A stretch of 64,000 nt of DNA from contig JANWIG010000011.1 in the NCBI GenBank assembly GCA_025449975.1, positions 124,001-188,000 of the forward strand, in the 5' to 3' direction. The notes under the pieces were generated by a model. That model was given only the letters and a program-made list of their open reading frames with translations. It was not told the origin of the DNA and did not search any database. This DNA comes from Thermoactinomycetaceae bacterium (GTDB taxonomy: Bacteria; Bacillota; Bacilli; Thermoactinomycetales; Thermoactinomycetaceae). Position numbers and translations under genes: made by a program. Positions within the stretch are counted from its first letter, which is position 1. Each line of letters starts with the position of its first letter. Shown one piece after another: positions 15,545 to 34,338 of the stretch.

Positions 15545-15757
15545 AAAAAGAGAGTGTGACGTGTTGAAGGAAAGGAGTAGCTAGATCACTGAGCAAAGCG
15601 AGTCAGGGAGAGTGAAAGCCTGATCTTAAGTGTCTAGTGAAGGGCATTCTGGAGCGTCTATGATAAATCAAGAGGGTTAACAGTGGGTTAACCAAGTAGG
15701 GTGGAACCGCGGGAAATAGCTTCTCGTCCCTATAACGTGTTGGATCGTTATGTTTTT
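15545..15757 (+). promoter_or_regulatory. Glycine T-box leader of glyQS
   Basis: The T-box core AGGGTGGAACCGCG is at 15698-15711. A Stem I region lies upstream, in which GGC (15643-15645), in the context GAAGGGCATTCTGGAG, is placed as the specifier codon for glycine. The hairpin ATAACG...CGTTAT followed by GTTTTTT (15732-15757) can act as the terminator. Uncharged tRNA-Gly is expected to bind and allow read-through into glyQS. Confidence 0.9.
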
Positions 15758-27551: not shown

Positions 27552-27618
27552 AGGATCTCTAATCTCTTAATCAGTTGGATCAGTATATAAGGTAGAGATG
27601 AGCTATTTTCAGCGTTCC

Positions 27619-27687
27619 AAAGGGCTGGTCGGGAAAGGATCGTTTCCACTGTGGTGGGCGATTTGTTCCCGTTAGCCCTTTTTTGTT
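27619..27687 (+). terminator. Terminator after the acyl-CoA synthetase gene
   Basis: AAGGGCTGGTCGGGAA and TTCCCGTTAGCCCTT form a long stem around an inner region, followed by TTTTTTG. Confidence 0.7.
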
Positions 27688-27797
27688 TGCGATCGTTGAG
27701 GGGATAGGTTGGGAGGCGGGAGGGGGATGGAATACTATTTTGGTAGAAACATCATTTTCTATTTTACAATACTTTTGTACAATCTATATAAAAGTGA

Positions 27798-28190
27798 CTT
27801 GACCTTCCACACGGTTTTCGCCGTGGGATGCTTGGGTTATTAAGGTCTACAGTCCAGATCCGTTTTGGCGGGTGCCCAAGTGCAGGGCTGTATCGTCAGC
27901 CCATCCCTTGTCGTTCTACAACAATGGTTGTATGTACCCACATAGGCGGGACGCCTGTTATCAGCGTTCTGGTTCCTTTTACCTGTTCTCATGGTTTTAC
28001 CTAGTGGGAGAGATCGGTTCGCTATGCGAACTTGGTCCCTTGACGTACCGAAGAACGACCTGCTACAAGCAGGTTGAGCATTGCTCCAACGTTCGAATTT
28101 GCAGAAAAGGTTGTTCGAAGTCATCCCACAAAGGGATTACCGAGCAACGCTGTCTTTGGTCCCACTACGCAAAACCGTGGGCTTTCATCC
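27798..28190 (+). ncRNA. Structured GC-rich element, possibly an orphan HEARO/omega RNA
   Basis: About 390 bases, clearly richer in GC than the AT-rich flanks and without a credible protein frame on either strand. Hairpins that I can pair by eye: CCACACGG/CCGTGG at 27807-27826, GGTTCGC-TAT-GCGAACT at 28016-28032, ACCTGC-TACAA-GCAGGT at about 28058-28074, and CCCAC...GTGGG at 28161-28181 near the right end. The element follows GTGA (27794-27797), and TTGAC lies at its left edge. The boundaries resemble palindromic IS200/IS605-type ends. No iscB, tnpB or tnpA gene is beside it. The RNA class is inferred, not proven. Confidence 0.35.
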
Positions 28191-28227
28191 AGCAAAGTTT
28201 GTAAAATAAGAAATGGAGACCTCATCT

Positions 28228-33921: not shown

Positions 33922-34338
33922 AGAAAGTAAACAAAGCAATCGCCGGTGGATACCGCAAGGTACCACGGGAGGAAAGTCCGAGCTCCATAGGGCAGGATGC
34001 CGGTTAACGACCGGTGGGGGCGACCCTAAGGCTAGTGCCACAGAAATGTAGACCGCCGATGGAGGTAATCACCTCACAGGCAAGGATGCAACGGTGCGGT
34101 AAGAGCGCACCAGCAACATGGAGACATGTTGGCTAGGTAAACCCCATCTGGAGCAAGACCTAATAGGAGATCTGCTTGAAAAAGCAGCTGTGGCCCGCAG
34201 TGATCTCGGGTAGGTCGCTTGAGCCATATAGCAATATATGGCCTAGATAGATGATTGCTACTCCGTATCGTGGGAGACGTGCAAGCTGTCGTTTAACCAC
34301 TTGGAGAACAGAACTCGGCTTATTGTTTGCTTTCTTAA
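33922..34338 (+). ncRNA. rnpB: RNase P RNA, type A
   Basis: The catalytic RNA of RNase P, which removes tRNA 5' leaders. Conserved blocks: AGGAAAGTCCGAGCTCCATA (33970-33989), ACCGCCGATGG (34052-34062), GCGGTAAGAGCGCACC (about 34096-34111), GCCTAGATAGATGA (about 34241-34254) and ACAGAACTCGGCTTAT near the 3' end. The ends AGAAAGTAAACAA and TTGTTTGCTTTCT pair as P1. The layout follows the E. coli A type rather than the Bacillus B type. It has its own promoter and terminator. End positions are good to a few bases. Confidence 0.95.

Follow-up and report, generated by a model that had tools for sequence, protein, structure and literature searches.

The window, that is, the whole 64,000-nucleotide stretch of DNA analyzed here, contains a gene-free structured block adjoining an acetyltransferase gene, just upstream of the gene. 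A first-pass annotation had described a GC-rich block with IS200/IS605-type palindromic ends at this place, and the GC step, the folding z-scores and the alignment of the family bear it out, with both palindromic ends being real. The GC content is 0.495–0.51 over approximately 27800–28200, compared with about 0.42–0.44 in the neighboring 200-base windows, and all 100 dinucleotide shuffles fold less well than the block, whichever strand is taken, with z-scores of −4.6 (plus) and −3.7 (minus). Comparison with the family sets the best bounds at 27799–28200, which makes the element slightly wider than the originally drawn 27794–28190. Its internal open reading frames have no credible Pfam match, the top score being 16.8 bits at a cut-off of 25. 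We rejected a decayed transposase gene, which the annotation had named as one example of an outcome that would speak against its own proposal of a HEARO RNA: besides the lack of a credible Pfam match, the sequences of the left and right ends (LE and RE) correspond to non-coding terminal parts of tnpB elements.

The same acetyltransferase gene allows a comparison with Thermoflavimicrobium dichotomicum (G001), placed in the same genus as the window genome. There, the region upstream of the orthologous gene lacks the element, and only a short distance separates a shared TTTTGTACAAT motif from the same ribosome-binding site. The gene further upstream is not an ortholog of the window's neighbor (31% identity), so that the left half of the comparison consists of the short motif only; the place is empty of the element, at a site too diverged for the TTAC joint to be read. 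None of seven orthologous or related acetyltransferase loci (L247–L253) carries a gene-free copy.

Several other features were observed around the element. A 17-nt AT-rich inverted pair (88%) at 27753–27769 and 28199–28215 brackets it, lies mostly in the flanks and may be due to chance. A long terminator-like hairpin (AAAGGGCT...AGCCCTTTTTT) follows the AMP-binding-enzyme gene at 27610–27685 and accounts for a chance mir-3132 match in the Rfam search at relaxed E. The RNase P RNA (class A, 33924–34337) and a T-box leader (15555–15734) are both ordinary.

Transposon ends and gene-bearing relatives

Further copies, whose existence the annotation had proposed to check, were found in the window genome and across the order, and related loci carry tnpB. 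A DNA search of the window genome returned 19 match segments of 69–100% identity, the window included, several of which are pieces of one copy; in the set of relatives, 21 of 41 genomes have DNA matches. We refer to the gene-free copies as minis. Of 71 distinct near-full copies, 54 passed filters on 5′ coverage, length and 97% identity, and 48 of these together with the window copy form alignment A1 (n = 49); five deleted or short copies (L066, L005, L151, L006 and L183) and L001, which is the window itself, were left out. Alignment A2 holds 47 of the 49 copies (without L156 and L142), and alignment A3 holds 26, mostly copies without hairpin inserts or large gaps. The parts of the window element are listed in Table 1.

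Table 1. Parts of the element in the window and its immediate flanks
Feature	Position	Strand	Remarks
TTAC target / left cleavage site (CL), candidate TAM	28201..28204	-	outside the element; TTAC at the left junction in 44/49 aligned copies; same tetranucleotide in IS608 (PMC5934647)
Left end (LE)	28102..28200	-	blastn to LE of tnpB elements L053, L071, L068, L114, L115, L039; alignment A1
LE guide tetranucleotide AAAG	28185-28182	-	alignment A1
LE subterminal hairpin CCCAC..GTGGG	28181-28161	-	alignment A1
LE second hairpin AATCCC..GGGAT	within 28102..28200	-	alignment A1
Place of TATAAT-like -10, LE/MID junction	28096..28101	-	degenerate here (CAAATT)
MID, structured RNA domain of ~128 nt	27970..28096	-	94.2 bits with model R1; covariation; occupies the place of tnpA-tnpB in gene-bearing elements
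Right end (RE) with reRNA-like scaffold	27799..27972	-	homologous to the tnpB-element block that begins with the stop codon of tnpB; covariation
RE pseudoknot loop	27894-27890	-	part of scaffold
RE pre-hairpin tetranucleotide	27831-27828	-	GCAT here, GAAT in family
RE terminal hairpin	27827-27807	-	part of scaffold
RE terminal TCAA	27802-27799	-	element end
Would-be 16-nt guide, host flank, 3′ end of RNA	27783..27798 (read 27798-27783)	-	predicted from the TnpB reRNA plan (PMC8612924)

On the minus strand, the copies read from the TTAC target through an LE of about 100 nt to an RE that closes in TCAA. In IS608, the left and right cleavage sites are reported to be TTAC (CL) and TCAA (CR), with AAAG (GL) and GAAT (GR) as the respective guide tetranucleotides (PMC5934647), and the same four occur, together with two subterminal hairpins, in the present family: TTAC in 44, AAAG in 43, GAAT in 45 and TCAA in 48 of the 49 aligned copies, with all four in 33. 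The window copy has three of them. The family ends are hairpins and not mutual inverted repeats, unlike the terminal inverted repeats that, with target duplication, define a classical MITE. The GTGA at 27794–27797, taken in the annotation for the insertion motif, belongs to the flank, and a single base separates it from the element end; the motif conserved outside the copies of the family is TTAC, found at the opposite end.

Some minis additionally contain a hairpin of about 25 nt (type GACCAT.GGGAGTGCCTGTGGTA or its reverse complement), inserted in the loops of different stems (L031, L032, L051, L052, L153, L027, L035 and others). Judged by insert length in the 49 copies, it sits in the LE loop five times, in the first RE hairpin eight times, in the terminal hairpin nine times and in two other places once each. 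It is also present in the LE of the tnpB element L114, and reads as a tiny palindrome that invades hairpin loops.

The alignments show matches to the ends of tnpB elements from the same order on either side. The clearest case is L053 (genome G022), which encodes a Y1 TnpA of 132 aa (PF01797, 135.5 bits) and a TnpB of 363 aa (PF07282, 81.9 bits, and PF01385) and has the same LE and RE as the minis, so that autonomous relatives share their ends with the gene-free copies. A second locus, in Seinonella (L141), has tnpA and tnpB genes with 92 and 85% identity to those of L053 and the same right end, its left end being matched only in part. In the gene-bearing relatives, the right block starts at the tnpB stop codon TAG; the minis differ between LE and the position of this TAG, where they have the MID domain of about 128 nt instead of tnpA and tnpB. 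As observations on the related loci, the closest solved chains to the related TnpB (L053:2161-3249) are named IS605 OrfB or OrfB_Zn_ribbon, followed by Cas12f (E ~1e-31 to 1e-25), and at L091 (G024:C1:101900-103400) a complete mini is followed directly, on the same strand, by a tnpA tail and tnpB, an arrangement that we read as a mini beside another element.

The right-end scaffold and its pseudoknot

The reRNA of TnpB is described as consisting of the 3′ end of tnpB and the right end of the element, with about 16 nt of flank as the guide (PMC8612924), and as containing a pseudoknot that joins the bases just before the guide with an upstream loop (PMC10097598, PMC10711439). The present family has a predicted scaffold and pseudoknot of this plan. 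A covariance model of the RE was run on nine elements of the related tnpB family and hits all of them immediately at the stop codon of tnpB, with 172–192 bits, compared with at most 35 bits on other tnpB loci; in these nine elements the scaffold extends from, or from just after, the stop codon to the right end. Among the 26 copies of alignment A3, its nested stems comprise 44 pairs, with 97.8% of cells paired and double changes in 16 pairs, and the covariation score is 0.300, compared with 0.152 in shuffles.

The pseudoknot of the family is formed by bases −7 to −3 before the guide, which pair with the apical loop of the upstream hairpin GGGSTGATGnnACASCCC. Across the 49 copies, 97.1% of its cells are paired, compared with 87.7% in shuffles, and 16 cells are changed on both sides, compared with 4.9; by its number of pairs with double changes it does not stand out, 122 of 500 shuffles reaching the same value. 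In the window copy, only three of the five pairs can form.

The two strands of this pseudoknot have changed together between gene-bearing and gene-free elements. All 24 exact-pattern matches to tnpB-element ends (18 of them distinct) end in GTGTC, as do the nine tnpB elements examined individually, and the loop of the 24 reads GACAC in 17 and GGCAC, GATAC or GGCCC in the others. Of the 49 minis, 33 end in GTCTC, and the loop is changed to match in 30 of these (GAGAC in 23, GGGAC in seven), the other three having GGGTC, a gap or a deleted loop. No tnpB element with a GTCTC end was found by the exact pattern search, which misses elements with other spacings: nothing matched in G001, where the tnpB elements L068 and L071 have GTGTC. 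Regular expressions performed poorly on other tnpB-locus ends, and the pattern search replaced them. Because the loop follows the changed end in 30 of 33 minis, the pairing seems to have been kept by selection in elements without tnpB, unless a GTCTC-bearing tnpB lineage was missed, since such an unsampled lineage could also explain the changed pseudoknot. Taken as a whole, these comparisons show that the right part keeps a predicted TnpB-type reRNA scaffold with its pseudoknot.

Reading the element on the minus strand is supported by folding energy, which is lower for this strand in 47 of the 49 copies, with consensus folds of −56.8 and −37.5 kcal/mol for the minus and plus strands, respectively. 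In this whole-element comparison two copies go the other way, among them the window copy, whose plus strand folds better. Counting G-U against A-C pairs was dropped as a strand test, as a G-U excess arises on either strand when the structure predicted for that strand is used.

The MID domain and the distribution of the family

The MID structure that we counted was drawn from one member (L049) and RNAalifold. It comprises four stems with 25 pairs, and 95.2% of 1140 cells are paired in the 47 copies of alignment A2; slid controls reach 36–51%. Changes on both sides occur at 13 pairs and in 115 cells, compared with 8.2 and 33.3 in shuffles, and none of 500 shuffles has as high a covariation score. 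Further pair types, one of the five measures, are not above shuffles (68 of 500). For the GUUC/GAAC stem, nested and pseudoknotted versions fit indistinguishably. With the covariance model, MID was found in none of 24 tnpB elements, nine of the related family and 15 others, among 52 loci (which did not include L091); the L053 and L141 loci each hold a separate mini with a MID match. As judged by these alignments and models, tnpA and tnpB are shown to be replaced in the minis by a conserved domain, MID, with a predicted RNA structure.

The other 28 of the 52 loci (L218–L245) were picked around weaker MID matches, and 20 of them have an RE match. Of the eight without one, blastn finds an LE as well as MID in L226, L229 and L235, only MID in L237, L241 and L242, and nothing in L225 and L227. 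The MID matches of L225 and L227, both in G040, are weak, while those of L237, L241 and L242 are stronger (66–102 bits). These RE-less loci may be truncated minis, chance matches or MID in another setting.

At the junction of LE and MID, 30 of the 49 copies carry TATAAT, compared with a mean of 1.4 in mononucleotide shuffles; no clear −35 motif lies beside it in the family copies, and a promoter search of the window copy gave no match. In layout the family resembles a small transcription unit, in which LE, a putative promoter, MID and the reRNA scaffold are followed by host flank as a candidate guide.

Of the 42 genomes of the order, 21 contain MID matches to model R1, 154 in total, with G017, G020 and G040 counted only at E 1e-4 to 1e-3. 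Among 398 genomes drawn from the class the model has matches in 21, one of which (G140) lies outside the order. One exact MID pattern (25 stretches) names Thermoflavimicrobium dichotomicum, Seinonella peptonophila, Marinithermofilum abyssi, Thermoactinomyces mirandus and Paenactinomyces guangxiensis as carriers. The element was not found by similarity search in plasmid or phage collections, nor was an exact MID pattern found in viral contigs.

A related TnpB (at least 60% identity, E ≤ 1e-30, broken copies included) is present in 15 of the 21 MID genomes and in two of the 21 without MID (Fisher p 9e-5, phylogeny ignored, as in the other counts given here), an association that fits borrowing of this protein by the minis. 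Six MID genomes have no related TnpB at this cut-off; in one of them, G017, a C-terminal remnant was found. Shorter remnants of this tnpB family, not included in the counts, also occur in at least two genomes without MID (G008 and G035), so that the association is softer than the counts imply. In the window's own assembly, no Y1 tnpA was detected, and related tnpB is represented by a broken piece and two C-terminal ends at contig starts; a working partner in the window strain is therefore hypothetical. Contigs C34, C35 and C36 of this genome (L023, L024 and L021) were seen to begin inside copies of the related tnpB family. Repeats of this family may be missing from the assembly.

Interpretation and relation to known systems

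Given these features, we consider it likely that 27799–28200 holds, in minus-strand orientation, a degenerate member of an IS608-like IS200/IS605 family of Thermoactinomycetes, made up of non-autonomous elements that would be moved by TnpA and kept by TnpB, both in trans. The first-pass annotation had anticipated a mobile, multi-copy element of the transposon guide-RNA kind without a nuclease gene, and the copies in relatives and the homology to the block 3′ of tnpB agree with this. It had also pointed to the correct flank for the guide, at 27.78–27.80 kb; strand and polarity have to be reversed, with the RNA on the minus strand and the guide at its 3′ end. The mutated right guide tetranucleotide, the broken pseudoknot and the missing −10 motif suggest that the window copy is an old, degenerate member of its family, probably a relic, and the latter two that it has probably lost guide function.

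For intact members, we hypothesize that Y1 TnpA made elsewhere would excise minis and insert them as single strands 3′ of TTAC. The putative promoter at the LE/MID junction would give a transcript of MID, scaffold and flank; such a promoter-driven leader makes sense, as a mini has no tnpB mRNA. This transcript could then serve a TnpB made elsewhere as guide RNA, possibly after removal of MID by TnpB, which can process its own mRNA to reRNA (PMC10278001). According to one proposal, TnpB cuts the donor site once it is empty and in this way helps its transposon to persist (PMC8612924); guided by a mini, it would cut the site that the mini left on excision, and the mini would be copied back. In this way, a mini would borrow both proteins, TnpA and TnpB, from gene-bearing relatives. 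Both mobile ends and a guide-type RNA fold, retained without genes, together with an extra RNA domain that is absent from the gene-bearing relatives examined, suggest that the nuclease acting with the guide RNA is borrowed from another element. More tentatively, and as somewhat less likely than not, we propose that they are parasitic guide-RNA elements without transposase and nuclease, which would hijack TnpA for movement and TnpB for retention, and that MID may be a new domain added to the reRNA for action in trans (a promoter-driven 5′ domain, for stability or TnpB capture) and selected independently of tnpB.

A rival account is that the minis are plain MITE- or PATE-like derivatives moved by TnpA, with a fold inherited without guide function and MID as a passenger between the ends. 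Gene-free PATEs with IS605-like ends are known (PMC3119063), the window copy is decayed and no partner TnpB with a GTCTC end came to light, all of which speaks for this account. We nevertheless regard it as rather unlikely: the compensatory changes in MID and the paired change in the pseudoknot exceed what single-stranded DNA transposition should need at the ends, and MID keeps its roughly 128 positions across four family labels (f1, f3, f5 and f17), the last outside the order. Considerably less probable is that MID is an antisense regulator of tnpA and tnpB and not part of a guide RNA. Antisense small-RNA regulation is said to occur in IS200/605 transposons (PMC10278001), but the duplex energy between MID and the element mRNA is no better than in shuffles in both pairs tried (z −0.66 and −0.24).

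We give very little credence to the proposal of the first-pass annotation that the block is a solo HEARO or omega RNA of IscB, on the plus strand with a 5′ guide. It was prompted by a structured, orphan block with IS200/IS605-like ends preceded by GTGA, but neither RF02033 (gathering score, or E relaxed to 10) nor another Rfam family matches the window element credibly, and a search of ten loci containing relatives, with E up to 5, gave nothing credible either. HEARO RNAs are described as carrying their spacer at the 5′ end (PMC9755519) and are placed upstream of iscB; the related loci have the block 3′ of tnpB, to which it is homologous, with the guide side at the 3′ end, and folding favors the opposite strand in nearly all copies. 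Equally improbable is that the block is a self-splicing group I intron framed by IS605 ends, an IStron without an ORF as known from B. cereus (PMC4227781), as the window copy sits between genes and no group I or II intron matches the window element at E up to 10 or the ten loci at E up to 5.

The family would allow a direct test of whether gene-free relatives exploit TnpB made elsewhere. The material includes the 154 MID matches within one order, a reRNA scaffold without tnpB, paired changes in a TnpB-specific pseudoknot, and, in MID, an extra conserved RNA domain that can be removed in an assay.

Among known systems, the minis resemble IS608- and ISDra2-type elements with tnpA and tnpB in the IS608 tetranucleotides, the subterminal hairpins, the RE reRNA with its pseudoknot and the candidate use of the flank as a guide; they differ in lacking both genes and in having MID in their place. 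Stand-alone omega RNAs act with an IscB encoded elsewhere. The likeness lies in guide-RNA copies apart from the nuclease gene, but those are of the IscB/HEARO kind with a 5′ guide, whereas the minis are of the TnpB type, with a predicted 3′ guide and transposable ends. The PATEs of Haloquadratum are likewise gene-free, multi-copy and heterogeneous, have palindromic ends of the IS605 type and are invaded by smaller repeats; they are archaeal, and the available parts of their description contain no conserved internal RNA domain or guide RNA (PMC3119063). The ORF-less BcISt1 IStrons are also derived from IS605 and gene-free, with a structured RNA between the ends, but this RNA is a group I intron (PMC4227781), for which the minis have no match. 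The bcr1 repeats of Bacillus cereus, short mobile-like repeats with mobility tied to a TTTAT motif (PMC6542083), are likened here by description only. Our literature search, whose scope excluded most subscription journals, found no publication title on TnpB-type minis with an added RNA domain, which we take as a weak negative. Gene-free IS605-type elements, in the form of PATEs, and ORF-less IStrons are already known; the present family has, in addition, a TnpB-type scaffold and the extra RNA domain MID.
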